In this document: positions 15,484 to 60,685 of the stretch, piece by piece
Numbering within the stretch: position 1 is the first letter of the stretch
How the letters are laid out: each line of letters opens with the position of its first letter
Assembly: GCA_958299035.1 (NCBI GenBank)
Contig: CATQJL010000223.1
Span: 72,151,006 to 72,215,005 of the forward strand
Length of the DNA: 64,000 nt
Direction of reading: 5' to 3'
From: Cylicocyclus nassatus
Taxonomy: Eukaryota > Nematoda > Chromadorea > Rhabditida > Strongylidae
Notes under the pieces: model-generated
Told to the model about the DNA's origin: nothing
What the model saw: the letters and a program-made list of their open reading frames with translations, nothing else
Databases searched by the model: none
Made by a program: the position numbers and the translations under genes

Positions 15484-15869
15484 TGTAAGATACTATTTGT
15501 ATATATCCGGTATGTAATCCTACACTTATTATTTCCTACATTATTCCACTATCACTGTACCATTCCATTCCTATATGATTTGTTTACAGATTGCCCGATG
15601 CCGATGCTCGCCAGACGCCGCCAGACAGAGAGGGAGGAGCGACTTTGAGACAGTGAGGACCGTAAAAGGACGGAGCCACCTCGTCTCCATAGGCTCAGAT
15701 CTCCTTGTTCTTGTTTGTTCTATTGATGTTGTTTTCCGGGGTTATTGATCTTAATCTTGTTTTTGTGCAATAAGGATAAATGTCGTGTTAGAAAGTGTTT
15801 TTTGTGGACGTCCGAGGCTTAGTCATTATTCAATATGGTATCGATCATTAAAGAGGGTGACGATATCCA
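15484..15869 (+). mobile_element. 5' LTR of an LTR retrotransposon (related to 45954-46344)
   Basis: The LTR starts TGTAAGATACT and ends GATATCCA; the exact right edge is uncertain by about 4 bp. A close copy lies in inverse orientation at 45954-46344. A candidate primer-binding site follows at 15874, but the internal region stops after about 100 bp at a DNA transposon and no gag or pol follows. Length is about 386 bp. Confidence 0.8.
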
Positions 15870-15873
15870 TAAG

Positions 15874-15891
15874 TGGTAGCAGCGAGTGCGG
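15874..15891 (+). promoter_or_regulatory. Primer-binding site
   Basis: TGGTAGCAGCGAGTGCGG directly behind the LTR begins with TGG, the complement of a tRNA CCA end. The primer tRNA was not identified. A similar TGGTGGCAGCGATC occurs at about 24766. Confidence 0.6.
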
Positions 15892-15972
15892 CCTCATAGT
15901 AGCCCGCAATTCCACCGACCTTCCTCTTTCTAGAAAATGAAATCTTCATGGGAATAGCAAATGAGTTGACCG

Positions 15973-17349
15973 GGAATGATATCCACGAAAGTCCATAATG
16001 GAGGAAAATGGACTTTCAAGCCCCATTTTGTTCGTTCGCGGTGGAGAGTGGTCGGTGTCTGCTTTCGCTAGCGTTATCCAAAAATTTTTATCTCATCGCA
16101 ACCACGAGGCAAAGCGGTGTGATGAAAATGATTCAACCCTACTTAAGCTCTCGCTTGCGAAAGAATCATGCGAAAACTCCATTTAGAATGGGGCAAAATG
16201 GGATTTACCTCCATTTTAAATGGACTTGAAAGCCCATTTTACTCCCTGCAACAGGTTGAGCTGGGACTAAGTCCATTTTTGACTTTTTTGCACATTTTTG
16301 ATGGCGGTTTGAAGATGTGTTCCTTAACCCATTTTAAGGTAACAAGTGAGTGGAAAAAGTTACATGTCCCTTATGAAGGCTGAAATAAGTGTTTCTTTCT
16401 AAACTTATACAAACGCTATGAAAAATCATGGAAGAAGGTTAAATTCACCAAAATATTCGCTAACAAACTTGAATGCTTCCAAATATCAGGTCGATGCGAA
16501 AAATCCTATGTAAATCATATAAAGTTTGTTAACTCTTCAAATCATCAACCAAAACTAAATTCATGATTTGTATTCAAAAATGAAAAAGATTTGTGTTTCA
16601 ATATAATTACTCAGAAGCTATCTTTTGACTAATCTCGCAGAACCAAACCGCGAAGACGGCATTTCAAAAGCGACTTTGAGTTTACGCAAGAATTACTAAA
16701 ATGGCGCTAGCTAGCAAGAAATTCTGTGAAAAATTTCTTACTAGCAGTAGTCCGTACATTCAACTATTAAGTATAAACATTCGTGTTAGAAGGGAAAGAA
16801 GAGCTAAAGCAGAGCATTTGTGAACTTGTCTTTTTGCAGATTCGTAGTTTCTCTGACTTAAAAAACTCCTTGGATGTATGTAGTACAAGGTTCCCTATGA
16901 GATAAGCATTTTGAATAACAGATTGCGGCGCATCTAGGCCAAGGTTTGCTTTCCGCAGAAAGCTCTACATAGAATTTGATTTTAATGCAGATTCATTAAA
17001 GTCTTGAAAAGCGAAGGCCCAGATATTACATGAATTTTGGTTTTGGAAGTAATTTAGACGCATCGATATAAATGGCATTTTGTGAGGTGTAAAGAAGCGG
17101 GAAAGAATAAAATATCCATGTGACTGACACTGTACTGTTAGCTCAGCCTAAATAGATACCGACCACTTGGTGGAAATGAGTTTGCAAGAGTGAGCAAACA
17201 TGTTGAGGCAAGTTGAAGAAAGGTTTGCTGAAGAAGTTTTGTGTGGAATGATGATTTGCGAATGCGATATCTTATCGCACCGCATGGACTAAGTCCGTTT
17301 TATTCGCACGAAAAGCCCATTTCGAGGGGACTTTCGTGGATATCATTCC
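15973..17349. mobile_element. Non-autonomous DNA transposon with 22-bp TIRs
   Basis: GGAATGATATCCACGAAAGT at the left end is repeated exactly inverted at 17328-17349. Inside, related words such as AAATGGACTTTCAAGCCC and AAATGGACTTGAAAGCCC recur in both orientations near the ends, suggesting subterminal binding repeats. No transposase frame is visible in 1.38 kb. The superfamily is not assigned. It sits about 100 bp behind the primer-binding site of the LTR element, so it probably inserted into that element's leader. Confidence 0.75.
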
Positions 17350-17614
17350 GGTTTTAGCTTTGACCGGGGGTAATTTTGACTAGGAAATTCAGTAGCGTGG
17401 GGTCTAGAAGATGGCCACTTTCTAGGCTCATAATCTCTCTTAATTTTCTCCTCAAATTACCTGTTTTTCTTGGTTTTTGTGATTTTATTTTCGATGGGAT
17501 AATTCGCTTATCTTAGGTAAGAAACATAAGAAACAGTTGATCAAAATCCTCACTCACTTCCTCGTCACCTATATGGGACCAGGACAGAAACAGCATTTTA
17601 AACGGTATAAAATA

Positions 17615-18293: not shown

Positions 18294-18848
18294 TATAAGA
18301 GAAAGGTATGATTTGCATGAATTCTGAAACCGCAAAAGAATAGGCAGTTATTATGATCCTTTTTCGTACACTGCGCTCTGAAAGGAGACACGTAGCATTA
18401 CTTATCTATCCTCCAAAACCGCCGCCTTTTTATAACTATAATGGGCCCCCCACCCCCCCCCCCCCTTTCCGAGAGGTAGGAGGGCCAAGAGAACCCCCAT
18501 AAACGACGGACACGGCGCATCCCACTTTGCAAGAAGGTTATTGATGGATAAGCTTAAAAATACAAGCAGTAATGTTCTGGAACGATTGCAAAGCTTCGGC
18601 CGGGGAGGGGATTTAAACCCTCCTTGACTAGCGAAAGACAGACTCGATCGCCTTGCGCCATCCGCCGCCTATCAACAGGCACCTTTCTAAGCTAATTGAG
18701 CCTGGCGCCGCCGAGGACCGACGTAGATACATGTTAGCCAGCTGGCAGAAAGGGTATGAGCAAACCTGTCAATACATGACCAACGGCGTGGCAAATCATC
18801 ATCGAATATCGATCATCTCTTCATTCGGCTATTTCTATCCACCATATT
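18294..18848. other. Unassigned spacer with C-rich run
   Basis: A C-rich stretch lies near 18446-18466. No gene supported; the open frame beginning at 18653 is driven by the downstream repeats. Confidence 0.4.
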
Positions 18849-25319: not shown

Positions 25320-26280
25320 ACATATGGATCCACCGGACTAGGTGAGCATTTTTATATTCGTGTCCGTTTCTTCTACGAATCACCGTTTTGGTTGGCTCGC
25401 CTTCATTTCGTTGCAATCTGAGTGTGTGCTATTATTCTGTTGCACGTCACTGTTTGCACTCATACTCAGTCTATTTTGGTGATCTTGGATTACATAAAAC
25501 TGATCCTCTAAGCAGGTTTCTCGTAGCAACTTTTGCCAAAATCCCAATGCAGTGTTCTATGTAGGTGGTGCAGTGTTTTGATAGTGTTAGCGCTAAAATC
25601 CTTGATATTTCGATCGAATCTCAGTTCTCTATCTTGCTTCATCATATCACTCGTAAATAGCAAATTTCTCTATCGCTAAGTTTTATGCCAGAACCTATCA
25701 ATTCTTTTTCGACCAAGTCTGCCCAGAAATTTGAATCGCATCATAAGACGCTTCTTTGTGCACATTTTCCTTTCTTTATGCTCTAGCCTCTTGTCACTCA
25801 TGTCATGCTAGCTCGTTTCCTTGTACTAACTTTCGCAACCTCACAGCTCTTTCTTTGCAGTAAACAGAACTCGCTAGCATGTGCGCGGTCTTTCTTTCAA
25901 AGTTCAAACTTCCTTTCATACTCCCAATTGTAAACATTGGTGCTTCTCAAGCGCGATAGCATCTTTGTTTCTTTATTCGAACAACACTCTCACAAAGTAC
26001 TTTCTTATCTTGGCTTTCATCAAGCACATGTTGCCAACGGCAGAAACAAAGATGCGGCGCGCACAAAGAGCACGTACCATCGAGAATGGTATATAATATG
26101 CCGATTAGGAAGACCGGCACCCACTTCATCGCTCAGGACCTGGAGGAGCAACGTCTTCTCCAATCTCAAGCAGCCATCCCTCGCATCAACACTCGCTCAC
26201 GGACTACAACGCAGGACAACACGGCTAATGGCTCTGCTTGCTCGTCACCTCCATAGACAGTAAGTCCAGTTGATTCTGCA
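25320..26280. other. Leader-like T-rich region before gag
   Basis: No open frame of note. It may be the 5' leader or LTR of the retroelement that follows, but I found no direct repeat of it downstream of the element. Confidence 0.35.
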
Positions 26281-26299
26281 TTGACTACCGGTGAAGGTA

Positions 26300-27262
26300 T
26301 GTCTTTATCGGAAGTTAATGTTTTAAGTCAAGCTTATAGCGGCATTACCCTCGGGAGCTCGTAAACACATAGATTATTTTTCAACTAATTTCCAAGACTT
26401 TAATGAATGGCATCGTCAGTTTGAAGACATCATACGTACTTCTGTAGTTCCACTTCCCGAGCAGGGTAAAGCTAACACGCTGTATGCAACTCTAAGAGGT
26501 GAGGCGCGCGATGTCATAGATGAAATGCAACCCGAAGATAGGAACAACTATGATAAAATTATTTCATTTCTTCACTCGCATTTTGAGAGACTACAGTTTC
26601 AGGATGTTGCCAAACGGGAATTAGCTAATTGTAGGCAAACGCAGGAAAGACGTCTATTCTTACAGTAAGCGCATAAAAAAGGCCGTGTATGCGTCACGAA
26701 CCTCAAACCAAAGTTCAACAAAAACTTCTGGAACAGTTTGTGGATCGCCTGAGATCAGACTTGAAATTTTTTGTTCGAACACATAAATGTAAAACTTTTG
26801 AGGATGCCCTGGAGAAAGCAGCGGATATTGAAGCGCTCTACAAGGAAACAGCCGACAACAACTTGGTCTACCATCCAGAGCTGCACATATTCGTCCCAAA
26901 AGCCGACCTGACGAGAAGAACGATACCGGAGACCAATCAAGAAAGAATGGATCCACAAATGGCCGACAATTTCAGACCAAGAGAGGTAAGACAGTTTCCA
27001 AATGGATTCAATAGATCCGCTGGGGTACGTCCTCAAAATTCTAATGTAACATGCTATAAGTGCGGTAAAAATGGCCATTTTGCTAATGTATGTCGTACTA
27101 ACATGCCTCCCCACGTAATAACTTTAACAGTAGGCGTCAGTTCCCCATCAGGAATAAACCCCAACCAAATTCAAATTATAGACAGAATCCAAAAGAACGC
27201 TTAGATCACTCTAGACCTATTGCGCAACGTAATCCAACACCTCAACAACACCCAGATACTTA
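26300..27262 (+). pseudogene. gag-like capsid/nucleocapsid, frameshifted
   Basis: The protein would package element RNA. An early stretch reads FNEWHRQFEDIIRTSV and later KANTLYATLRGEARDVI, the usual Ty3-type gag arrangement. The frame changes near 26.65 kb and continues with LLEQFVDRLRSDLKF and FEDALEKAADIEALY. A retroviral zinc knuckle, CYKCGKNGHFANVC (CX2CX4HX4C), lies at about 27052-27093. After the knuckle the reading frame moves again near 27.11-27.14 kb and runs on, without a stop, into the glycoprotein-like region. This second shift could be decay or a programmed frameshift; one copy cannot tell. Confidence 0.8.
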
Positions 27263-27965
27263 TAACAGGTCTAATGTGCTAGCAGTCGAGCAGACCCCAG
27301 CGCCAGATACCACTAATCCGTGTAACCAATCTCTGCTCGAGGAAAAAGATGCTCATATTGCACTAATTGCCAGAAACAACGCGTTAGCAGACATTGCGTG
27401 TGCAACCCGTGAACAAAACACTCATAGTAATAGCGAAGAGACATCTCGACGCACATTTTCTTCATCGTCCAATTCTTCTAAACTTCCTCATACTATGCTA
27501 GTGGTGCTTGCGATGGCAGCCCAGGCCTCTGCTTTTGAATTGCCTCCTGCGTATCTATGCTCTCACAAATCACCCGTTAGTTACTGGAGAATACCATCCG
27601 AAATAAATTGTACTAAATTACTGCCTAGTTGGTCTGCAATAGCCCATCCATTGAAAGTCACAGTTTTCAGACCCAACACCGTTAGATGTCAAAGTGTGGC
27701 AAATGTTTGTAGAATAATTACTCAGACAGTCACTTATTCTGTAAGCTTCTTTGGTGCTCGCTCACAGGATACTGTAACGAAAGAGCAGACAGTCTCAGAA
27801 GGGGTGTGTCGACACATGATTAGTCATAAAGCTTGTGCTCATGGTGGCGAACTTTCAGCAGTAGGCACCATTTGGAAAACTTCAAATAAACTTGAAATTA
27901 TATTGCCTTCCGCTCCTTTTCATTGTTGTTCGGATTATACTACCACCGTTTCGAATTGTGTTGTA

Positions 27966-28885
27966 CTAGGCTGTTGCATAAGTTCTGTTCAATTTGAATT
28001 TTTGAGTTTAAAATGTCATAACTTCTTTCAGAGTCAACTTTTTTCCAAGGTCTTAGTTTCTATGTGTTGAGCAGTCCCTTGGCTAAAAAATGCATATTGA
28101 GATCTGCGCAAATCTTTGTTAAGGAAGAACCAAGAATGCAAAAACTTCGCAGCGTTTTTCTTCGAATATGTCTTTTTTGACATGGTAACGCTCCCTTATG
28201 AAAATTGATAGGCTTTTCTAATAATGGATGGATAGAGAAATTTTCGTAGATTATTATGCAACATAAAAGAGCCCATAGGGTTTGCGCTGCCGAGAGATTT
28301 TCTTGACCGAACAAAAAATTAGCCACTTTTTGACCTCGCTTCAGCACATGTGTGCATGCCTATTTATGAACTACGAACGTTTTACAACTGACGTGAGCGC
28401 CGAAAAGGAATTGGTGGATGGGCCCTGTTAGCTCTTGCTTTGCCCTAGCACCTCCAACTTTGAGCTTGTCGATTACTTCTATTCGCAGAAAGTTATTGCT
28501 TGTAAAACATCTATACCAAAGATTTATGTTCGAGGATAAATTTCACTAGCAAGACGTATTCTTCATGGGACCGAACTTCTGCATATACTAGCATTCCATA
28601 CCCTTATTCCGAAGCCAATGAAAGAACTGACTTGAAGGGCGCATTGTGGAGATATCCTCGCAAGGACATATTTCTAGGGATAGAACGTACCTCGGCCACT
28701 TAGAGATTTTAGGCCTGTGATCTTCGTACACTAAGAATTTTATTGAATTCTGGTATGCTTTAGAAAGCGCAAGGAAAGCACTTTTCAATGATACCAACCG
28801 TATCGAATTAGAGATGAAATTCTCTTAGAACAGCTGCTTCAAACATGAGGCAAAAAAATCGGACAGAACTTATGCAACAGCCTAG
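27966..28885. mobile_element. 920-bp mariner-type MITE inside the glycoprotein region
   Basis: The ends CTAGGCTGTTGCATAAGTTC are inverted and flanked by TA at 27964-27965 and 28886-28887. There is no transposase. Codons resembling the host protein flank it on both sides, so it is a later insertion. Confidence 0.88.
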
Positions 28886-29777
28886 TATTCCAAGCTACAG
28901 TATATGGATATCACGAATCCTCAACACTGGACAGCACGATTGGACCACTACAAGGATGCCGCTACGAAGACGGATCACGCACAACCAAGGATGGAGCGGC
29001 CGTGATTTAGACACCGGAATCAGAGGAAAAATGTAAGTATATTTTAGTTGCCCCCATGAAGGGTACTTTGGTAGACAAAGTTTGGTTAAGTGATAGTAAG
29101 GAATTTGCGTTCTCATTCCCTTCACTCGAATCCCATTTGATTGTTCTCAGACCCTCACTCTCACTGATCAGGGTTATGCCATTCAATTTTATCACTCCCT
29201 CTCTCGTCTAAAAAGACAATCTCAGCCAACCATTTTGCAACAGTTTGGCGTTGCCACTACTAATCAATTAGTCGCTCAGCTCTTGGCCGTAGAAGATACC
29301 ATGCATAATTCTTTAAGCACATCTCTGCGTCAGTCGATTCTCTCATTGCGCAAATCCATGAGTTCTCTGAGCATGTCCTTTGCAGCCGCTATCTCTGCTA
29401 ATCCCACTGTAGCCATGCGAAATATTTTACAGCGTTCTGATATCAAAGCGAACTTTACAGGCGAAAACATTATCGGTACGCAAGCTTGTACTGTAATTCC
29501 TCCGTCGTTATATTCTTTAGTAAGATTTAACTCTTCTTGCTTCTCACGTCCCTCTGTTATTGTTAGCTTACCTAATAAATCCCAATGGAAAACATTTATC
29601 GATCCCCTAATGGGAGTTTTGACCAATAATCTCAGATAATCGCCGGGGGCAGGCGGCCATGTGATTATTGGCGGGCGAGCATCGGAAAAATAGTTCGCTG
29701 GTTTCTTGCGGTCCGCTTGCAGATATCTGGAAGAATTTTAGCGAAATTTTAGACGGATGCTTGAAGAACAATCGCGG

Positions 29778-29844
29778 TTTCCTTATAGATTAGCTGCGGC
29801 GCAGGGCCGCTGCGGCCTTGCGCCGCACCTAATCTATAAGGAAA
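29778..29844. repeat. GC-rich perfect-stem hairpin within the retroelement
   Basis: TTTCCTTATAGATTAG and its complement close a stem that continues as CTGCGGCGCA/TGCGCCGCA around a few-base loop. It lies in a non-coding stretch at 29640-29848 between glycoprotein segments, probably part of a small insertion whose left limit is unclear. Confidence 0.7.
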
Positions 29845-30130
29845 TCTAAGTGAGTTCGTCCCCGAGCAACAATTTAGTGAGCTATGTGCAACTCTCGAGG
29901 CTAATGAAGCGACTTTAAATGCTCACTTAGATAGCTCTAATGTCCACCAGTGGCACACATTCCTGGCAGCTACCGTAGCCAATGTTCCACCATATTCTTT
30001 ACTCAGTTACGTAGTGTCATACATCTATCAACCATGGGTCATAATATGTTGTGCTATCATTACCCTGCAGGTCCTTTCACGCGCTCTCATGTTATATCTC
30101 TCCATTCAAACACCAGTAAATTTCTTACAA

Positions 30131-30860
30131 TATATGCGTAACCATAATTCAGGGAATCAAAGTATTCCTGAACCAAACAATCCAAATAATTCTTCCGAAG
30201 TATTCCAACTAGCAGCAACCAAATTTTATGATCCTAAAGTCTACCACGTATCCCTTATACACCCAGTCACATCTGCGCACATAAGAATCAGAATCAATAA
30301 CATTAATGTATCAGCGTTAGTTGACACGGGGTCCACAATAACGTTAGCATCCGATGGGTTATGCGCAGCGCTGGGGATATTCCAGCTTGATAAGGCTCAG
30401 ACAAAAGCAGCTTTGGGTATGGCGAGAACACCTATACCGGCGGGCTCAAAAAGGGCTAAATTTGAGATAGGTGACACTCAAATTTACTCAATTTTGCATT
30501 TTACTAAGGGCCATTGCGTACTCAATGTAGACTCCAACTATGAAGTGATTTTGGGACACGACGTCCTTTCGCAATTACCACCAATGACTATTGATTATCA
30601 AAGCAAACAAGTATCTTTTGGCAGCACCGTATTACCACTGGGAGCGCCTTTCACAAAGAACAATGACGTTGATTTGGAATACCCAATAAGAGTTAAGGAT
30701 ACAGTATGCATACAGCCTAATACAGAAAGTTTTGTAACATGCACGGCCCCGCCCACAAACTTAGGAAATGATTTTGTATTGGTATCGTAAAGCGCAAAAC
30801 CAGATGACAAGGACCTCATAGTAGCTCCATCCATAATCAATTCTAAAACACCATATATCT
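30131..30860 (+). pseudogene. Retroviral-type aspartic protease
   Basis: This pepsin-like (retropepsin) domain would process the polyprotein. The active-site motif is LVDTGSTITLAS at about 30319-30354, with the later flap and hydrophobic motif VILGHDVLSQLP at about 30547-30582. It follows the membrane segment in the same reading frame after a short Asn/Pro-rich linker. One in-frame TAA at 30788-30790 separates it from the reverse transcriptase linker, which stays in the same frame, so the break is a single stop codon and not a frameshift. Confidence 0.8.
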
Positions 30861-31975
30861 TAGTGACAAATCCCACAAACCAACCGGTTACTCTATATGC
30901 GGGAATGCGTTTAGCTAACGCTCCTGAAGTTATTCAAGAAGGGCTTACTGTAAGTAAATTACATGACACGCCAATGCCCGCAATCTCTTGTGTAAGCGAA
31001 TTAACTAGCGATGACCCGAGCTACCGCGTAGATCTTGACAACAGCGATCTAAGCGATGTAGAACGTGAGCAGCTGGCAAATTTGCTTATAGAATTTGCCG
31101 ATGTATTTTCTAGACATCAGTACGACATAGGTAGCTGTACAGCTGGTAAGGTGCACATTTACACCAATAATGATCCACCAGCACGCATTCGTCCATATCG
31201 TGTTCCAGTAAAATACCGCGAAGAACTACAGAAATATGTAAACTTAGTACGTAAAAAGGATAATTCCCTCCGCGTCTGTTTAGACATGCGCCGCCCTTAA
31301 TAAAGTAACTCAACACTTCCCGATCCTTATCCAATCTCTCGTATCGATGACATGTTAGAGAAAATTGGGGGAAACAAGTGCTACACTACTCTAGATCTAG
31401 CTAGCGGCTACCTTCAACTCCCATTAGATGACTAAAGTAGCTATAAATGTGGCGTAATAACTGAGAATCGGGTGTATCGGATGACACATCTGCCATTTGG
31501 TCTAACATCAGCTAGTAGTTACTTTGTTCGCATAATGACCTGCGTGTTAGGAGGTTTAGAGGATAATGTGCTCACATATATCGATGACATTCTAATCTAT
31601 AGCAAAGACTTCCCATCACACCTCAGCGCCATCCGAAAAATGTTAACCTGCTTGCGCGAATTCCACCTAAAAGCGTTCAAAAAGTGCGTCTTTGCCAAAC
31701 ATCAAAATACGTTCCTGGGGCATACGATAAATATGCACAGCTACTCACCTGCGGAGGCAAATCCCCGATCCATAAGAGAATTTCCCAACCCGCGCAACGT
31801 CAAGGAAGTCAAGCGTTTTGTAGGTATGGTGGGATTCTTTCGAAAATTTATTCCAAATTTTGCAAACATTGCTGAGCCGCTCACTTGGCTAACACGTAAG
31901 GATAATAAATTCCAGTGAACCGACAAGCAGGAAGCCGCCTTTGTAGAGCTTAAGGACGCGTTATTGCAAAAGACC
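30861..31975 (+). pseudogene. Ty3/gypsy reverse transcriptase
   Basis: This enzyme would copy the element RNA. A linker leads to RPYRVPVKYREELQ at about 31190-31230 and then, after an apparent small internal deletion, to VRKKDNSLRVCLDMRRP. Two in-frame stops follow near 31299, then ISRIDDMLEKIGG and TTLDLASGYLQLPL, another stop at about 31434, then the catalytic YIDDILIYS near 31578-31604. The connection region contains EVKRFVGMVGFFRKFIP, a typical Ty3 thumb/connection motif. Everything from 30014 to 31918 stays in one frame, so this stretch is damaged mainly by stop codons and one deletion. Confidence 0.85.
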
Positions 31976-32670
31976 CATCCTTGAGTACCCAAATTACCGA
32001 ACCGTTTCACATTTTTACGGATGCCAATCAGGTAGCTCAAGCGGGCGCTCTAATGCAGGAGCACGGAGCGGGGGCAAGTAAATATTATGCCATAGCATAC
32101 TGTTGCCGCACTTTGAGCGATAGCGAGCGTCGCTGGCCCGCGGTACAAGTAGAACTAGGTGCGATTTATATATGCGTTGCGTCAATTCAAGCATATATCT
32201 GCATGTCCGAAGTAGTCTTGCATAGTGATCACAAACCGCTAACATTTCTACTAAATAAAAGTGAAACGCATGATAACCTAGATAATTGAGCTGCAGAGTT
32301 ACAACATCAAAGTTGTACACGTAAAAGGCGAAAAGAATACGGTAGCCGACGCATTATCACGCATATTCGAGGACAAAAATGAAATCCCGGCAGTTAGGGA
32401 CGAACTGCAAGATATCATCGATTTTCCTGTTAGTTTACAAACATTCTGCTTGGCTACAGGGGTAAAACCCAAATCCTCACCGTTTCCTAGAAAAACATTT
32501 GTCGAAGGTCTAGAACATGCTATTAACTTCGCAGATGAACAAAAATCTGACAACTTTCTAGGTTTAGTTTTCCAACTAAAAACTGCTAACAACCTAGAGC
32601 CCTCTACTGACGAGCAAACAAAAAAAAGAAGTATTAGAGACGGCAAACAAAACAGTTATAAAATCTGACG
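31976..32670 (+). pseudogene. Ty3/gypsy RNase H and linker
   Basis: RNase H removes RNA from the RNA:DNA hybrid. The first acidic residue is in FHIFTDANQ (about 32005-32031), the Glu in AVQVELGAIY, and the later Asp in VLHSDHKPLTF. A frameshift near 32285 leads to KGEKNTVADALSR, the conserved end of gypsy RNase H. The remaining sequence to 32670 is linker without clear motifs. Confidence 0.8.
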
Positions 32671-34056
32671 GTTGCTTATATTACCCGTTTGAACAAAAGA
32701 CACGGTAAAACTTCTCTAATTAGTACCTCAGCCATTACGACTATTTGAAGCCCACCGTTCTAGCGCACTTTCTGGAGGTCATGTCAGTGGCCAAAAACAT
32801 TAGCCAAAATTTTGCGCAAATATTATTGGCTTACAATCTATAGTGATATACAAAAATGGTGCGAAAGCTGTCTCACATGTCAAATGCGCAGAAAACCTAA
32901 ACCAGCATATAAAAAACAACTTATTCCAGTTCACAGCGAAGCCGTTTTTGCCAAAGTTGGACTCGATTTATGCGGACCTCTCAAAACCACGGACAGAGGG
33001 TAACAAGTACATTCTGAATATTGTCTGTTGGTTTACCAGGTACGTGATTTCTACACCCTTGCCTGATGCAAAAGCAGTCACTATCGCTCACGCACTTTTC
33101 ACAGAATGTGTTTTAAAATATGGTACAATGACTGAATTGATTTCTGGACAAACTTCTAGTTTTATCTCGCATTTCTATCAAGAATTTTGCAATCTCCTCG
33201 ATATACAACAAAAACTAGCTACACCGTATCATTCTATGGATAATGGCGCAACAGAAAGAACATTTGGAACATTTCAGGTCATGCTGTCAAAATTCATTAA
33301 CGAGAAGCAAGAGGACTGGGACCTATTCGTACCCTGTGTCACATTCTGCTACAATACCACCATCAACGAAGCGACAGGTGAGTCACCCTTCTTTTCTCAT
33401 ATTTGGTAGGGATACAATTTTTTACAATAGACAGGATTTGATGCCGCAAACACGCGTAAAAATGCCTAACTTTGACGAAACTTCTGAATATATAGCGCAA
33501 CTTAGTTCTGCATTACTTTTGGCTTGTCTAACGCAGCAGAACATGCGCGATCCTATAAGCAAAAAATGAAATCCAGTACGATAAGACCGCTAGAACGGAA
33601 ATCAAAGGAGATCGCGTTTTATTCCGTAATTACCCCAACAAGCAAGGGTTGGCTAGAAAATTGTGTTTCCCCTGGATCGGTCAATTTCGGGTAGTAAAAT
33701 TGGGGCGTCCTTATGTAGTGATTGTTAGCATAACATCGCCGCAATCAAAACCTCGTAAGGTACACCTAAACCAAATTAAAGAAGTAGTGGACACGGGCCC
33801 AGCATCCACGCTTCCAGTGATACCAGAAGAGGAAAACTGCATAAAAGAAAATCCTGAGGAAGAAATTATGGTTATGATCACTCACCCATAACTCTCACAG
33901 AAATTACGCCAGTTGAGGAAGTAGAGTCGCACGGATACAATCTGCGCTCTAAGAGAAATATATAAGATATAACTGTACGAAAAGGTAGAAAAGTCGCAAA
34001 CATTATTTCAGGAGACCGTTTCAGGTTTCCAGGAACACGACTACGACGATTTTGAT
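32671..34056 (+). pseudogene. Ty3/gypsy integrase with mutated catalytic residue
   Basis: Integrase would insert the cDNA. The zinc-binding end is represented by WCESCLTCQMRRK at about 32862-32896. The core starts at VGLDLCGPLK with the first catalytic Asp. The second catalytic motif reads ELISGQTSSF, with Gly where the second Asp is expected. The Glu is present in NGATERTFGTF. Frames change near 32.9 and 33.4 kb, and a chromatin-binding-like C-terminus (WIGQFRVVKLGRPY) follows. The pol tail contains GYNLRSKR, common at the end of gypsy pol, and stops at 34054-34056. Confidence 0.8.
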
Positions 34057-34456: not shown

Positions 34457-36120
34457 CTGAAACATCACAAGGTGATGTACATTTGGAGGAAGAAATGGAT
34501 GACAAGGACGTGGAGACGCCCTTGACCACTCCCGATGCAGATTCTCCAATGGCGGAATCGCAGAAACCAGATCAGGTACAGCGCGTCACCTCTCCGAGGG
34601 GACCCGCAAAACAAAAAGTACCCAATACTTGCGGAGATTCATCCTCATCAGAGGACGATCCTTGTTGTAGCAAGTTCATCACCGCAAAGGGATCAGCACC
34701 CAAAAATAACAGAAGAAGAGATCGTAGTTACTCCAGATCTCCTTCGGACTCGGATGATGAAAAAACTTTACATCCTACAAAGATGTCGAAATGAGCGCGG
34801 AGGTAAAAGGAGTGCTGGCTGGGTTGGTAGAGAATACCTCTCTCACACCTTCGGCGGTGGAAGAAACTTGGGCAGAACCGAAAAAGATCATTCATAGAAG
34901 AGATGATAACGAGCGCAGGCATAGAGATGCCCATGCTCCAAGACAGTATGAGCACTTCGTTACCCATCCTTTTGCAGATCTTTTAAAGGGAAAATTGACA
35001 CCAGTGGAGTCACCTTATTACAACACTAACTTCGATGCGAAGCTTTTTGAGCATATACCCGCTTCTGGATACAGCGGACTGGTAGAAGGACTATTCCCAG
35101 AAGTAATCGGAGGTATTCCAAGATCTTTGAGATCGAAAGTGACCATTTTAGAGGCCGTTGGCCCTAGAGCCATTGAGTCGTTCCGCGTCGAAACCCATAC
35201 AACGGACTTGAAACTATGCTCGAAAATAAGCAGCCGCTGCCCACCATGCCAGTGCACGAGTACGCGTCAAAAGAGGAACTAGCAAAAACAGTTCACGGCT
35301 TAGTTTTTGATAGTCCCATGCACCCGTTTTGTAGCGCGTAAAAACACTTTTTGGTAACGGCGCAAAATTGGAAACAGTACCTTTGAAGTGGCTCTTTCCG
35401 ATCGCTTGGATCTCCTACTCTTCACCTCCATCGATCCATATGCAGCTAACATTGCAACAGGCAAAAGAGGGATCGATTTAAGAAAAATGATGGTAGGTGA
35501 CCTCATTTGGGTTTACGCTCCAGCGGTATCGGTCAAGTTTGGAACAACCAAACTTACCGCACCGCAGACAGTCGAACAAGCATACCAGGTACGACAACCG
35601 ACTGTATGGCGTGTGTGGAAATTCGCGCTAATCCATCGCGAACTCTCGCCAACCCTCGGTTTTATGGTAAGTATAACACCAAAAGCGGCACGGATATGTA
35701 TGGATGGACATCGACGCTTGGTATCTCTAACGTCAAACCGATGGAGAATCCAGAAGACTTTCAGAACTTGGAGGCGAATTTTTTTATTGTCGCTCCGTTT
35801 CGAGCTCGTCAACTCGGTTACATTGTGTTTGCGTGTGAACCGCAAAACCAAACGGAACTATTCAGCTACATAGCGGATATACCATATTTTAGCAGCCCAG
35901 AACCGGTACTATTTGACGTACGTCGCACCAGCAACGAACATCGTGAATTGGTGGAGAGCAAGTGGTCCAATTTCGAATTGTTCAACACCAGCCCAGGTGA
36001 GGTGCTCGGATTTTTGGAACCCCACTATAGCACAGCCAGCGGGGCGATCTCGGCAGCCATAACGAATGCGACAGACTCGGCAGCCCCAGGGCCCGGCACC
36101 GATGGTTTGGCGTCAAACTA
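34457..36120 (+). pseudogene. Unrecognised ORF downstream of integrase (acidic/SR-rich plus globular region)
   Basis: I do not recognise the family. Segment 1 (to 34794) is disordered and acidic with EEEMDDKD, SSSSEDD and the Arg/Ser motif RRRDRSYSRSPSDSDDE, like a phosphoprotein or nucleic-acid-binding tail. Its stop overlaps the ATG of segment 2 in an ATGA arrangement at 34791-34794. Segment 2 (to 35282) looks globular, with ADLLKGKLTPVESPYYNTNF and LVEGLFPEVIGGIP. Short frame changes follow near 35.21 and 35.36 kb, then LDLLLFTSIDPYAANIATGK and finally, in another frame from about 35.61 kb, MYGWTSTLGISNV, FFIVAPFRARQLGYIVFACE and an Ala/Pro/Gly-rich end. It shares the plus strand and degree of decay with the retroelement. 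It may be its third gene or a separately acquired viral-like structural gene. Confidence 0.5.
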
Positions 36121-40665: not shown

Positions 40666-40821
40666 CAAATGCTCAGAATGCCAGGCACCCCAATTTTGGG
40701 GTCAAAGGAGACTTCGTAAAAATTTGCGGAGTCATGGGAAACTTCGTTTTCAAAAATCCTCCAAACCAACGCGTGCCGGGCCCTGTCGGCAGCACACCCA
40801 ACTGTCTGGGAATCTCCGAAT

Positions 40822-41193
40822 TTGAACGGCTTCCTCATACTGGCCAGTTTCCGTATTCCCAATGGTAAGAAATCAGGCTGGGCTGTGGAAAATTCAATCC
40901 GAGGCGCCTTCCAGGCCGACTTTTTAGACGGACAGGTCACCCAGATTGAAATGAGCACCGACCATTTCCAGGTCACGGCACAACTACAGACAAGCGCAGG
41001 CGTTCGTTTCCGCACATACTTGCTGAATTCCAGGTCACGAAGTATCTCGGTAGCCACCTCCCTGAATACAATGGAGGAGCGCGCAAACCCGGTTTTAAAA
41101 ATGTTGGAAGCCTCAGTGTTGTCGAATATGTTCCACCCCGGCACACTGGGATGGAAGTTGGAAAAAGCTATTCCAAAATTTGGTTTTGATTAG
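40822..41193 (+). CDS. Hypothetical open frame, possible terminal exon
   Basis: This 123-codon frame has protein-like composition (VTQIEMSTDHFQVTAQLQT; later FHPGTLGWKLEKAIPKFGF) and ends at a stop at 41191-41193. I do not recognise it and see no domain. The annotated ATG is only the first in frame; the part from about 40890 looks most coding-like. A longer open frame on the opposite strand (40551-41144) overlaps it, so at least one is spurious, possibly both. It could be an exon of a host gene or a transposon remnant. Confidence 0.22.
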   Translation: MNGFLILASFRIPNGKKSGWAVENSIRGAFQADFLDGQVTQIEMSTDHFQVTAQLQTSAGVRFRTYLLNSRSRSISVATSLNTMEERANPVLKMLEASVLSNMFHPGTLGWKLEKAIPKFGFD

Positions 41194-45400: not shown

Positions 45401-45953
45401 TTGTGTTCGTATCAACATGCTCACTTACCCCCCCCCCCCCCCCCTCCCATGCCAACTCTCAACCCGTAGCTTGAAGTTTGCATAAAATCGATAAAGGTAG
45501 TTGATATGTAGATAATTCTAAAATCTCATGTTTTTGTAACCAGCATAATCACATACACCTCTGTGCCAACTTCTTACCGCACACTTTAAAGTTGTAAATC
45601 AGCCCGCCGCTCGCCAACGATAATGGGTACTGGCCTCTCCTCTCGTCATCATTGAGCGGCTGTTATACTTTTGCATTTCTTTTTCTGGAATCCACCAGCA
45701 ATTAGACTCTCATCATGCATGGGATGAAGAATAGAAAGGCAGAGAAAACTCTGCCATGGGTTGGGGAATCCCGTGTTTATTGTGAAGAATCATTGCTTAA
45801 TCACAACTATTAGCATATTCGCTGCCAAGAGTCAACAGTCAAAGCTGGATGCAAGCCGAGATTTCCTTTATCGGTTCAATCGGCTACGCCTGGAATCCCT
45901 CGTTTCCCGATTGCGTTTGCGGAATCCACTTTCTAAAGCGCAAAATAGACTTA
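45401..45953. other. Unassigned flank of the LTR
   Basis: Apart from the C run no feature is supported. Confidence 0.35.
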
Positions 45954-46344
45954 TGGATATCGTCACCCTCTTTGATGATCGATACCATATTAGATAATGA
46001 CTAAGCCTCGGACGTCCACAAAAAACACTTTCTAACACGACATTTATCCTTATAGCACAAAAACAAGATCAAGATCAATAACTCGGGAAAACAACATCAA
46101 TAGAACAAACAAGAACAAGGAGATCTGAGCCTATGGACGAGATGGCTCCGTCGTTGTACGGTCCTCACTGTCTCGAAGTCGCTCCTCCCTCTCTGTTTGG
46201 AGGCGTCTGGCGAGCATCGGCATCTGGCAATCTGTAAACAAATCATATAGGAATGGAATGATACAGTAATAGTTAATAATGTAAGAAATAATAAGTGTAG
46301 GATTATATACCGGATATATAATATACCGGAGATAATATCTTACA
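45954..46344 (-). mobile_element. 3' LTR of an LTR retrotransposon, minus orientation
   Basis: Read on the minus strand the LTR starts TGTAAGATATTATCTCCGG and ends GATATCCA. It is a close relative of 15484-15869. A purine tract (AAAGGGGGAGG) lies directly before it, which identifies it as a 3' LTR. Only about 100 bp of internal sequence precedes the tract, including a possible pol tail (NFFNDRFRPVLPL) that hints at BEL/Pao. Confidence 0.78.
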
Positions 46345-46356
46345 CCTCCCCCTTTA
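46345..46356 (-). promoter_or_regulatory. Polypurine tract
   Basis: On the minus strand, AAAGGGGGAGG immediately precedes the TG of the LTR, the expected position of the plus-strand primer. Confidence 0.65.
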
Positions 46357-46469
46357 ACAAGAGTCCGTCCTCGGGCTCAAAGAGGTAGCACGGGGCGAAA
46401 CCGGTCGTTGAAGAAGTTGAGGTCCGTTACCACGCCGGCATCTCAGCACCAGCACACCACGGCTGACCA

Positions 46470-47878
46470 CGTCTCGACGTCCTGCAAAAAAGTGACTGAC
46501 CCCACGATAAAGAGGCCGTCTTTACCTCGAGACAACGCCATATTCATTCGCTTGGAGTCGGAAAAGAATGTAGCGAGGTCCCTTCTTTCCATTTAAGTCC
46601 GTGTCGTGCATAGAATGACGACTGATCTTTCGGATCCTTGAGCGCTATCGACGGTTCCGACGGTGACTCCTGTGCCCTGTAACATGGATTGACAGAAGAA
46701 TTTTTGGTCTCGATACAAACAAATTACTAATATATCCTCTGTTCTCATGCCTACCGCCATGAGTAAGCGCACTAAAACTACCATACCGCTGGCTTCGGTT
46801 TGATTGAGCCAGTAATTGACTGTTCCGCGTGGTTGGGCACATTGATCAGTGCTACGGGGATGTTGTTCTTGGGCATTTGTAGCCGTGACGGTAGTCCCGT
46901 GTTTGCTCCCTGGGCGTTCCACAAATCAATTGTCCATTGTAGAACAGTTCGGAGTCGAGCCGCATCATTTTTTCGTGTGGCCTGTAGACGGTGCTGACGG
47001 TGCAAATGGGAACATTACCATTTACGTAATGCTACTTCGAGTACCGATCGCGAGCTCACTTCAGCTGCCAATGGAATGGTGTGTACGCCGATGTACGGGA
47101 GCAGTTGCTTGCTATCACCAATTAAAGTGAAGCGAGCCTTCTGAAATCGCGAAAACATTGCATTAGCGCGGCTTCGGATTTCATTGACGCTTCGTCCAAG
47201 AGGACGCGCTTTGTTACCGATTGTGCGTCACAGACCCCTTTTGGACGTTAAGTTAAGCGCTGCTGCCACAGTGCACAGATAAACATTGGACTTATACAGC
47301 TTTAGGAAATGCTGTTAGAATTTTCACCTGGTCGGACGAATTTTGCTCCAGGAGTAGCAGTTATTTATGCTCATTGGATACTACGTACCTTTCTGTTCCT
47401 GTGAACATAAATTTGCGCATTGCTTGTCTGCTTTCTGAAAATGTTTTGAATTTTCTGAAAGTCTGGCGTTCGACAGGTGCCGGTGCGTGTTGTGGAAATT
47501 TTCCATGAGCGTGTTGAGTGCATATGGTGACCTGTTGGTGGGATCGTACGCCATTATGTCGTTAACATAGCGAACTGAGCGAATATTTTCTGATTGCATT
47601 TGCGCGATTTTTGAACCGATCACATCAAGTGCGCTGTGCACGGCGGCTACGAGGATTACCTCGTCCCTATTCACGGGTTCTGAGGCCATGACCGCTGTGC
47701 ACAAAGACTTACCTGCACCATAAGCACTGTCTACTATCGTTATGGGAAAGTCCTTATTGAACGTAGTGACAGTGCTGACCTGGTGATTCAGCCGCACGAA
47801 GGATCCTGCGACATTCACAACGATTTTCTCTTGCTCTGGCGCCGCCGACTCCTTCAAGTTCGATGTCTCCTGCAATCA
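46470..47878 (-). pseudogene. UPF1-like superfamily 1 helicase fragment
   Basis: SF1 helicases unwind nucleic acid with ATP. The 5' part (47878-47381) starts behind an ATTGCAG acceptor and contains a Walker A motif ITIVDSAYGAGKS. Around 47125-47020 the minus strand reads LIGDSKQLLPYIG, the motif III-type sequence, followed by LAAEVSSRSVLEVAL. Then come YRPHE-like and YNGQLICGTP stretches in shifted frame, VALINVPNHAEQS, and at 46650-46600 TVDSAQGSERSVVILCTTRT (motif V). Motif VI, NMALSRGKDGLFIVG, lies in another frame at about 46545-46500. Motifs occur in the expected order, but with several frameshifts and a missing spacer, so this is a pseudogene or very damaged exon set. Such helicases are, to my knowledge, numerous in nematode genomes. 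Confidence 0.75.
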
Positions 47879-57785: not shown

Positions 57786-60685
57786 TTAGATATGATCATA
57801 ATTTAGTAATTTAGGTAAGTCTGCCATCATCGATTTTTTCTTGAAGGTTTCAATATTGCCTGTGGAAATAATTTCAACAGGCAATCGTTGAAACCATCTC
57901 GCACATCGATAAAATAAGTAATTGAAAAGACCAGATCGATGATTTCTAATAGGTTTGTAGTGAAGATTGAATCCCCCTAATCTATCGCCTGTAGGCATGA
58001 AAATCCAGAATTTACTTGCTCTTAGTTTGACTTCTAAACGAAGTATTCGAAAGCAAAAGACTAGGTCAGCTATAGTGCGTCTTGTTATTAAAGCGGTTAA
58101 ACACAATGTCTTGTTTCGAACACTATAGTGAATTCCGTTTTGTATTTTGTCTGTTGTATTTCGATAATAAATTAGTCTAGTGAAGGTATGCTGAACTTTT
58201 TCGATTTTCGAAATATTCTTTTTTTGGAGGGACTCCAAACTTGAGAACAGTATTCTAATTGTGGAAGAAAATATGCTTGATAGAGTCTTGTCAAAATTAT
58301 CTTATTGGGGGTATGTATGTTTCGGAAAATCATGAATAGTGTCGAATACGCTTTCTTGACAATAAAATCGATGTGTTCAGAAAAATTCAGTTTAGAATCA
58401 ACAGTAATTCCCAGGTTTTTTACTGTTTGGCAAGTGTTTAATTCAACCTCCTTGACTAGATAAACAGCTGGAGTAATTATACCAAGGTGAAGAAAAGAGC
58501 ATTTTTTCGGATTAAGAGAGAGTCCATTTTGCGATGCCCAAGTACACATTTTATCAATGGACAATTGCAGTTCGTCATGAATTTTTCTGAAATTATGCTC
58601 ACCATACGCTGCATAGATTTTTATATCATCGGCGTAGATTTGGAAACTTATGTTATCTGATTTCAATAAACTAGGCAATTCTAAAGTGAAAATCAAAAAT
58701 AGTAGGGAAGATAAAACAGCCCCTTGGGGAACTCCATTAGGGCAAGAGAATCTATTAGAAAAAGCTTGTCCAACTTTTACAGTCATATTTCTACCATTTA
58801 GGTAAGATCCAAACCAACTCAAAAGATTTCCTGATATTTCGATATCTTTTAGCTTGAAAAGAAGGATATTGTGCGGAATTTTATCAAAAGCTTTCGAAAC
58901 GTCGAAATATATAACATCAACAGATTTCCCTGAATTCAGTGCTAGTCTACATTCAAAAATAGTTTCGATAAGATTAGTTGCAGTAGATCTGCCTGGTATG
59001 AATCCATGGTGCTCAGGTGATATAAGTTGGAATTTCTCGAGCCAAGATAATAATTTATGCTTTTATTATCTTTTCCATAATCTTGATTGCTATACAATTA
59101 TGACTAATCGGTCGAAAATCAGAGGTATATTCAGGTTTTGAAGTTTTTGGAATGGCAGTGACTATAGCCTCTTTCAATGCGGGAATCTCAGAATAATACA
59201 TAGAAATATTGAATAAATCAGCAAGAGGTCTAAAAAAATTATCTGCGCATTTCTTATATAAAATCTGAGGGATGCCATCAATTGGTTCCATGCAAGAAGG
59301 CTTCAAAGATAAAATGATCCGATGAATATCGGAAGGATGAAAATAGACAGTACTAAGGCTATTCTGATCAGAATGTTCATCTACTGAGAAACCTCTCGAA
59401 GGTGAATTTTTCTCAAATACACTGGCGAAATATGTACCCAGTGCATTGGCTTTTGCAGTATCATTACAAAAGCTTGAACCTGATTGGTCTTTGAGAAAGT
59501 GAATATTATTTCTTTTATGGAACTTTTGATGGATGTATTTGAATACATTCTTCATAGAAGCTTTTGATGCGAGACGACGTTCATAATTATCTAAAAATTT
59601 CTTGAGATGAAATTCGATATCGGAGCAGACCTTCTTGTAAGTGGGGTTTGTAAGAGGTGTTTTCAACGTATGGAATAAACGATATTTTTGCTCCATCAAA
59701 GAATTGGTGTGATTCGGATAACGAAAGTTACTTGTCACTTTCATTTTCATGGATCCAAAAAGGGACATGCCTTTGTAAATAATGTAACAGAACCTAAGGT
59801 ACAAATCATCTGTTAACCGATAGTTTTCGTAAGTTGAAATTAGGTCAGTATTCGATAAGTAATTATTGAGTCCATTATAATCAAAATTCGGAAAATCAGG
59901 GAGAGGGTAGGAGGGATCTGACAAAGCTTCATAATTGTAAGTGAATGCGATGATATTATGGTCAGAGGATGCAAAGGGTGGATGAATCTCGATATTATTG
60001 ATATCATCAGATGGTGACAGAATCAGGTCAAGAGTATTATTTGCATGAGTTGCTTGTTGAACTCTCTGTTTAAGTCCTGCGCTACGAGAAAGGTCAAGAA
60101 ATGGTTTGGATTCAGGCTTGAGAGCACTTTGGGTAATCCAATCAATGTGCAGATCAAAATCGCCAACTACAACTGTGTTTTTTGCAGCAGATAACAAGCC
60201 AGTCAAAACATCTATTACTTGTCCATTATCATCTCGAGTAGATTTTGGTGGACGGTAAACAACAATGAACCTGACAGGATTTGATCTTGATCTTGATAAA
60301 ACAAGCAATTCGAGCAAAAGTAAGCCGCATTTTGCTGTTGAGAGTCTGTCTACGTGTTTTACAAATATGTTATCTTTAACAAAACAGCAACACCACCCCC
60401 CCCCCTTTTGGGTTTGCCTGTCATTGCGGTATATAGAGTATGGCAAGTTTCCAATCAGTTCGGAATCGACTATTTTCGATTTCAACCAATTTCAGTCAAA
60501 AAGACAAGATCAGGTTTATCATGGGTCAAAAGAAATTGTAGGTGGTGTATTTTACTAGTTATACTTCGAGCACTGAACAGTAAACATTTGAGCGAGGATG
60601 GACAACCGTGCATGGTCAGTGGTTTCCCGAACGTCTGTTGGGAAGCTCCGAGATGTGCTTGAGTTGGCCGCGATATACGACCCAC
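57786..60685 (-). pseudogene. LINE ORF2: endonuclease and reverse transcriptase, frameshifted
   Basis: The 5' piece (60685-60482) contains LLFSARSITSKIHHLQFLL and PDLVFLTEIG, the start of an EEP endonuclease. A shift leads to the long frame 60485-59055 with VVYRPPKS, VVVGDFDLHIDW (Asp where Asn is usual in GDFN) and FASSDHNIIAF. The reverse transcriptase begins with TAIPKTSKPEYTSDFRPIS. Another shift near 59050 leads to HHGFIPGRSTATNLIE, IYFDVSKAFDKIPHN, NGVPQGAVLSSLLFLIF and the catalytic FQIYADDIKIYA. The final C-terminal segment (58238-57786, third frame change) contains HTFTRLIYYRN and YKPIRNHRSGLFNY. The RT motifs and C-terminus fit CR1/L2/Jockey-type LINEs. At least three frame changes make it inactive. 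Confidence 0.8.

Follow-up and report, generated by a model that had tools for sequence, protein, structure and literature searches.

An env-like glycoprotein region between gag and protease in Ty3/gypsy-type retroelements of Cylicocyclus nassatus

A stretch of 64,000 nucleotides of the nematode Cylicocyclus nassatus (contig CATQJL010000223.1, positions 72,151,006 to 72,215,005, forward strand; referred to as the window) was analysed together with related copies from the same genome. The window contains an old, broken member of a long terminal repeat (LTR) retroelement family of about 13.5 kb with many relatives in that genome. The element is probably an env-bearing one of the Ty3/gypsy type, in which a class III fusion glycoprotein lies inside the gag-pol frame, between nucleocapsid and protease (PR). 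An earlier reading of the window from its letters alone (the sequence-only reading) had described the order gag, signal-peptide-like segment, Cys-rich part, RLKR site, transmembrane (TM) segment, retropepsin, reverse transcriptase (RT), RNase H and integrase; translation and Pfam searches confirmed this order in the window.

Relatives were collected from a single assembly (369 contigs with a total of 514,686,895 bases). A search with the env piece at window 29100-29636 gave 102 matching rows, the best of the others being 87% identical, and stop-free open frames of 1361-1464 codons were found in 18 of these rows. Six stretches of 9.9 kb (L031-L036; 36-87% identical to the window env piece) were picked for open frames and divergence and are for this reason not representative of average copies. 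When they were compared with the parts of the element by tblastn, the capsid and nucleocapsid parts of gag, the two env parts (envA and envB), the TM segment and PR were found in this order in one frame of 1367-1464 codons in all six, with RT in a second frame; RNase H and integrase followed RT in L031, L032, L033 and L035. The frame that the sequence-only reading had seen leaving gag and entering the glycoprotein is thus real in the relatives, where gag, env and protease share one unbroken open reading frame (ORF1), and absent from the window copy, in which the frame of the CCHC zinc knuckle ends in a stop at 27202 and env occupies a different frame (27102-28070). Chance open frames are excluded by dinucleotide shuffling: the longest open frame in 300 shuffles of L031 ORF1 had 206 codons, compared with 1460 observed, and the 322 codons at window 27102-28070 were reached by 0 of 300 shuffles.

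The constancy of env was assessed with the RT piece 31436-31915, for which 150 of 1118 candidate rows were scored. The 98 RT rows taken comprised 58 of the window clade (57 at 45% identity or more and one 39% row placed by hand) and the first 40 of other clades; 2 fragment rows were dropped and 50 were left out. For pairing, 87 of the 102 env rows were used, second fragments being left out. An env match at most 8 kb upstream on the same strand accompanied 51 of the 58 clade RTs, mostly at a distance of 1.8-2.1 kb (50 of 57 once the hand-placed row was removed), and none of the 40 other-clade RTs; the latter figure only means that env is too diverged there for the window env piece, since two of those 40 (L060 and L063) hold env. 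The remaining seven clade RTs showed no such match, and all four of them that were inspected retained env remnants, in the form of env sequence with internal deletions between gag and PR (L056, L057) or env pieces adjoining PR (L058, L059; partly inverted in L058). Copies lacking the glycoprotein had been named by the sequence-only reading as a threat to its proposal; the clade copies that were checked included none devoid of env, the env-less L062 being distant.

L060 and L063 represent a second lineage among the other-clade RTs (38.5% RT identity). Each carries env-like sequence, a strong TM segment, DTG, YxDD and integrase in one frame (2084 and 2392 codons, respectively, in the retrieved stretches; 2600 and 2687 in the genome-wide RT search). 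The env profile matched L063 with an expectation value (E) of 1.5e-15 and L060 with 32.3 bits, and the env of L063 matched the Pfam family Monjiviricetes_fusion (PF24664) above its cut-off (E 5.9e-7, 28.3 bits). The frame of L060 is continued in L061, the stretch before it, with Retrotrans_gag (E 1.4e-8) and a hydrophobic segment, and gag through integrase lies in a single frame in L060 with the adjoining L061. L063 was read from env on, and no gag family was found in the 228 residues read before env; no CCHC pattern was found in the stretches of the second lineage. Extra open frames were seen after integrase at L063:7762-8499 (at least 246 codons) and L060:1-858 (minus strand, at least 286 codons), with no Pfam match. 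L062 (2232 codons) has the conventional order, CCHC followed by DTG; none of its segments reached the hydropathy threshold, and it gave no match to env. An unrooted RT tree of nine rows with long branches, made from copies of this genome alone, separated lineages A (92/96) and B (100/99).

These data bear on the idea that two unrelated elements were joined by accident in the window, which had been raised as a way in which the sequence-only reading might fail and to which the nested insertions filling the window copy lend some colour. Elsewhere in the genome, sequence collinear with the window at about 92% nucleotide identity (over 26242-27965, 28885-29630 and 29843-31242) lies in the same order between LTRs with target duplications. 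The order is also found in copies with as little as 36% env identity, and in L060 and L063; a simple joining is therefore refuted for the family and has practically no likelihood left.

The env frames of 11 copies were aligned and showed many invariant cysteines, a TM region and, at their beginning, a hydrophobic stretch. All six long copies passed the hydropathy threshold at the TM segment, carried R-x-x-R at env position 282-285 (RPKR, RQKR, RPKR, RLAR, RVAR and RLAR) and had 5-6 sequons per env. In Pfam searches at E up to 1, 10 of the 11 env copies matched Monjiviricetes_fusion (L031: E 1.5e-7, 30.3 bits at a cut-off of 27), five matched the rhabdovirus G fusion domain (best E 0.018) and four the herpesvirus gB family (best E 8.1e-5). 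An AlphaFold2 model computed from the alignment was submitted to Foldseek. Against the PDB, 498 matches were obtained, 95 of them at E up to 0.001 (best E 1.5e-15), and the best 50 of the 498 were all herpesvirus gB. Against BFVD the best E was 5.4e-21, and the matches listed were led by rhabdo-like and nyami-like glycoproteins; glycoproteins of rhabdo-like, nyami-like and chu-like type, together with gB, made up most of the 50 listed, a few others being entomopoxvirus or unnamed proteins. Shayang ascaridia galli virus 2 and Socyvirus heteroderae, both named after nematodes, were represented among the 50. The Pfam and predicted-fold matches support the assignment of env as a class III fusion glycoprotein, and with it the fusion-glycoprotein reading, the fold matches coming from a model of low confidence; its source is most likely a mononegaviral (nyami/chu-like) glycoprotein. 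A phlebovirus-like class II env was considered and set aside, as the Pfam and fold matches are class III.

The env pieces of the window searched singly were less informative. None matched a Pfam family above cut-off; gB was matched weakly by the C-terminal piece (E 0.038) and not by the N-terminal one. Against PDB sequences at E up to 10, the C-terminal piece had herpesvirus gB (9cu4, ORF8) as its sole match (E 0.063), and searches with the N-terminal piece and a middle stretch returned nothing useful; the window env appears too diverged for one-piece searches. These first weak matches to gB only, together with a fusogen role that is a predicted one, are what could be said for some other viral or host membrane protein that is not a fusogen. 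That reading is very improbable in view of the above-cut-off Monjiviricetes_fusion matches in L031 and L063 and of the PDB and BFVD fold matches listed, which are mostly class III glycoproteins.

Ratios of nonsynonymous to synonymous substitution (dN/dS) were determined for env by the Nei-Gojobori method in 12 pairs. Values of 0.125, 0.131, 0.164, 0.083, 0.204, 0.133 and 0.116 were obtained in seven pairs, with dS above 1 in four of these; the near-identical pair L031/L005 gave 0.322, and the ratio was undefined in the other four pairs (saturated or zero dS). Where defined, dN/dS was 0.204 and 0.243 for gag, 0.134 for the PR part and 0.058 for the second open reading frame (ORF2). The env is under purifying selection.

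The passage from ORF1 to RT differs among copies. ORF1 ends in TTT-TAG-CA in six of nine copies examined, namely L034 (6258-6268), L035, L036, L026, L027 and L030; in L028 and L024 it ends before this site, and in L029 it crosses the site in another frame. The second frame was mapped in L034-L036, and pol goes on there in +1, a frame in which UUU is able to pair again; TTT-TAG-CA could be a +1 frameshift site or a splice acceptor. Inside the RT fingers, GTN-ACT-TAA-CACT was found in the L031-like copies, namely L031 (6607-6640), L032 and the small stretches L044-L050 and L055, and GTC-ACC-TAA-AACT in L033 (6591-6625) and the small stretches L051 and L052. The pol frame, computed for L031, L032 and L033, is -1 in L031 and L032 and +1 in L033. 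In total, ORF1 runs into GTN-ACY-TAA in 13 of 14 anchored copies, the window copy being mutated there; L053 and L054 gave no anchor. In both ACY-TAA groups a Thr codon of the pol frame follows, and on our own reading the usual RT spacing would be regained by a short forward hop, from Thr to Thr, across the stop. No NPGP, as a sign of 2A skipping, was found in the six ORF1s of L031-L036.

Measured by coordinates from LTR to LTR, L032 is about 13.4 kb and L031 about 13.7 kb long. The two LTRs are 100% identical over 425 bp in L032, 99.5% over 403 in L031 and 99.7% over 349 in L034, and target duplications of 4 bp were read from the flanks of these three elements; the family was recently active and the window copy is old. 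The LTRs of the same three start with TG; their last letters seem to be -GT or -CT, not -CA. A candidate primer binding site lies 3' of their 5' LTRs in the common sequence TGGTAGCAGCGAGTG. Troyka, with duplications of 3 bp and CG termini (PMC12440569), was considered and dropped against the 4 bp and TG found here.

The features of Metaviridae (Ty3/gypsy) are present: the pol order PR-RT-RNase H-integrase with gypsy-type RNase H and H2C2/rve integrase (window, ORF2 of L031 and L035, L063), a Ty3-type capsid (Ty3_capsid PF19259, E 3.2e-9 in L034; in L031 only 0.048, next to Retrotrans_gag at 1.4e-6), and LTR matches of 349-425 bp with 4-bp duplications. A sub-threshold DUF1759 match was also recorded in gag. 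Errantiviruses, env-bearing gypsy elements of insects, carry env as a separate ORF after pol; by the definition used here (env ORF after pol, F-type class I), the present elements fall outside that genus, having env before PR and class III matches. They likewise fall outside Belpaoviridae, with a gypsy-type RNase H, no BEL/Pao family among the matches listed for pol and env before PR.

A third reading frame (ORF3) lies between ORF2 and the 3' LTR and has at least 1163 codons in L041 (copy L003; L041:511-3999, minus strand). A UPF1/NAM7-like superfamily 1 (SF1) helicase was recognised at about residues 685-1149 of L041 (AAA_12, E 2.6e-35; AAA_11, 2.4e-12; best PDB match NAM7, E 8e-19). The motifs DEAS and GDSKQ were found by scanning, and a Walker A sequence AYGAGKS was read from the printed alignment; scans of ORF3 for the pattern G..G[AST]GK[ST] and for motifs V and VI gave no match. 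With an AAA_11/AAA_12 core, Walker A, DExx and GDxxQ, the predicted product has the features of a UPF1-like SF1B helicase. ORF3 is 74% identical in L032 and 22% identical in L036, and its end survives in L034; it had no match in L060-L063, whose 3' parts were partly covered. A structure model of its N-terminal part was uninformative (predicted local distance difference test, pLDDT, 30.3).

For the env-bearing Ty3/gypsy-type elements the following scheme is proposed. Translation of the full-length RNA would start with Gag in the cytosol, an internal signal peptide would direct the growing chain to the endoplasmic reticulum (ER), and the ectodomain would enter the ER lumen and be cut at the R-x-x-R site. 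The single TM segment would return the chain, leaving the protease (with RT, RNase H and integrase) cytosolic alongside Gag; translation would arrive at RT, RNase H and integrase through recoding in one lineage and without it in the other. Each Gag would then be made joined to Env at the membrane, the retropepsin later releasing the parts. Such a scheme would take the place of a separate membrane targeting of Gag and a separate recruitment of Env, at the cost of a Gag:Env:PR ratio of 1:1:1 unless splicing adjusts it. More tentatively, the elements may constitute a separate kind of retrovirus with a membrane-threaded, genome-length Gag-Env-Protease(-Pol) product, whose Gag is anchored in the ER via the internal signal peptide of Env, whose particles assemble with Env attached, and which has, where a retroviral env gene would lie, a UPF1-like helicase of its own, perhaps protecting or exporting a long stop-containing RNA; RT would be reached by a +1 shift at UUU-UAG in one sublineage and by a shift or hop over ACY-UAA in the RT fingers in another.

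Several observations weigh against these proposals. The six long copies are a selected set, chosen for open frames, and in 84 of the 102 env rows no stop-free frame of 1361-1464 codons is present; by tblastn, L034 has no RNase H or integrase match and L036 a partial RNase H match only. Only three of the six (L033, L034 and L035) reach the hydropathy threshold at the place of the signal peptide. The env model is good only in parts (mean pLDDT 52.8; predicted template modelling score, pTM, 0.31), template modelling scores normalised to the query are low (0.22-0.28) among the PDB matches listed, and a profile search of PDB sequences gave no match. The env-less, conventional L062 stands near the second lineage in the unrooted RT tree, so that a single origin of the env arrangement is not shown. 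All comparisons are confined to one genome; scans of viral contigs and genome contigs found no relatives outside it. Finally, a spliced mRNA could make env alone or drop env from gag-pol.

This last point can be developed into a reading in which env is an optional in-frame segment and splicing decides, unspliced RNA giving Gag-Env(-PR) and spliced RNA giving Gag-PR-Pol or Env alone, with no joined polyprotein needed for particles. The gag parts of L031, L032, L034 and L035 contain donor-like AGGTAAG, and acceptor-like sites were scattered through ORF1; Cer1 of Caenorhabditis elegans is described as making an accessory protein from a spliced mRNA (PMC10309623). However, a crude consensus scan revealed no donor/acceptor pair at matching places in all six copies and no donor match at all in L036, and the L060 frame is open from gag through integrase, so that we consider this reading credible but rather unlikely. 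A production of env from internal starts or separate promoters, with the common frame as an ancestral relic, is improbable: an AUG stands at the start of the signal-peptide-like segment in the window and in L031, but among the 11 aligned copies a Met at this place is confined to L031, its near-copy L003 and, in a displaced position, L036, and the open frame across the gag-env linker persists in six divergent copies.

The layout of the window copy is collated in Table 1. Three-frame translation showed its gag-to-integrase stretch to be split over several frames with many stops; the TM segment and protease share one unbroken frame (29840-30787). Pfam families above cut-off were the CCHC knuckle, a retropepsin family, RVT_1, RT_RNaseH and rve. 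The glycoprotein described by the sequence-only reading is a real env region of which 920 bp are a mariner-type insertion, and as this insertion interrupts it, the true env has about 580 rather than about 870 residues. That reading had also not seen that the copy is a fossil cut by insertions, nor that the element extends to the helicase ORF and a 3' LTR, with the helicase part and this LTR inverted at 45949-47839. No Rfam match was found in the window or in eight loci. Elsewhere in the window, at 58172-60491 on the minus strand, reading frames resembling the RT and endonuclease of a long interspersed nuclear element (LINE) were judged by eye from the translation.

Table 1. Positions of the parts of the retroelement copy within the window and the basis of each assignment (TIR, terminal inverted repeat).
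Feature	Positions	Strand	Basis
5' LTR	15484..15875	+	blastn to L031 LTR, ~82-84%; 94.1% vs window 3' LTR over 375 columns
5' untranslated region, other pieces	15876-15973, 17348-17614, 18294-18847	+	blastn to L031; gaps taken as later insertions
5' untranslated region, last piece	25321..26128	+	blastn to L031 upstream of ORF1
gag, capsid-like part	26327..26665	+	weak, sub-threshold Pfam gag matches; 91.6% identity to L031 ORF1; Retrotrans_gag / Ty3_capsid in relatives
gag, nucleocapsid part, one CCHC zinc knuckle (~27049-27096)	26677..27201	+	zf-CCHC, E 2.5e-5
env, internal signal-peptide-like segment	27495..27539	+	translation; aligned place in relatives, hydropathy threshold reached there in 3/6 copies
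env ectodomain, N-terminal part, Cys-rich	27540..27965	+	88.5% identity to L031 env; class III matches in relatives
Later mariner-type insertion in env, 920 bp, foreign to element	27966..28885		TIR CTAGGCTGTTGCATAAGTTCTG, TA duplication; not in L031
env ectodomain, C-terminal part (open 29100-29636)	28886..29636	+	weak gB matches alone; 102 genome rows
env, RLKR site	29205-29216	+	translation
env, putative TM segment, in frame with protease	~30035..30103	+	translation; hydrophobic segment at this place in 6/6 copies
Retropepsin (LVDTGS)	30284..30574	+	PF13975, E 5.2e-7
RT region	30791..31915	+	RVT_1, E 1.1e-12 on 31436-31915
ORF1/ORF2 junction of L031-like relatives, mapped onto window	~31290-31330	+	junction comparison
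RNase H	31954..32286	+	PF17917, E 1.2e-18
Integrase, core and C-terminal part	32804..33888	+	rve, E 7.9e-10; 87-95% identity to L031
ORF3, N-terminal part, broken	34507..36085	+	tblastn to L041 ORF3, 57-64% identity
ORF3, middle piece, displaced	40747..41172	+	tblastn to L041 ORF3, 62.9% identity, E 7.9e-53
3' LTR, inverted	45949..46351	-	blastn to L031 LTR, 81.2%
ORF3, UPF1-like helicase part, inverted	46386..47839	-	tblastn to L041 ORF3, 54-77% identity, E 4.8e-148

Among known systems, Atlas virus (Belpaoviridae) of Ancylostoma ceylanicum resembles the window element as a nematode LTR element with a foreign viral envelope in a continuous polyprotein free of stops and introns, and differs in its order Gag-Pol-Env, with the Gc-like part as the last 498 residues, in a class II phlebovirus-like Env and in a BEL/Pao pol (PMC9094657). 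The statement of the sequence-only reading that known elements carry env after pol, usually on its own transcript, consequently does not describe the sole scheme, because the Env of Atlas virus sits in one polyprotein, though last (PMC9094657). Cer7 of C. elegans and Anakin of mosquitoes are LTR elements whose envelope, as here, derives from a class III source (herpesvirus and chuvirus, respectively), but belong to BEL/Pao, not gypsy, and the Env-like proteins of Roo, Tas and Cer7 are located downstream of the polyprotein (PMC7642597). Type III glycoproteins are known in mosquito gypsy and BEL/Pao elements, and env-carrying gypsy elements with type III fusion glycoproteins combine, like the present ones, a Ty3/gypsy-type pol with a class III fusogen (PMC13172572). 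For Cer1 (C. elegans, Ty3/gypsy), the accessible part of the source describes no env between gag and pol and does not describe the extra protein CERV (517 aa) as a helicase (PMC10309623). The LINEs TRAS and Jockey are retroelements with an SF1 helicase, as here; they differ in being non-LTR elements with a virga-like viral helicase, whereas the present LTR element has a UPF1/NAM7-like helicase in its own ORF (PMC5563155).

A literature search found no description of an env between gag and protease, which is not proof of absence; Chary & Hayashi (2025) lay outside the comparison. New to us, relative to the literature found, are the internal position of env, the wide spread of this arrangement in one genome, and the ORF for a helicase.

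Retroviruses are taken to follow the order gag-pro-pol-env almost without exception, since Env has to travel through the ER whereas Gag and Pol remain cytosolic. That a lineage with Env inside the Gag-Pol frame has lasted and expanded suggests a viable alternative to this solution, and the env-before-protease order would imply an unusual way of making virus particles. The lineage makes it possible to test the counting and recruitment of Env, and an internal signal peptide in place of matrix-type Gag targeting. It also adds to the gypsy-type elements that carry a class III envelope, here probably of mononegavirus-like origin, and provides an LTR element bearing its own UPF1-like helicase.

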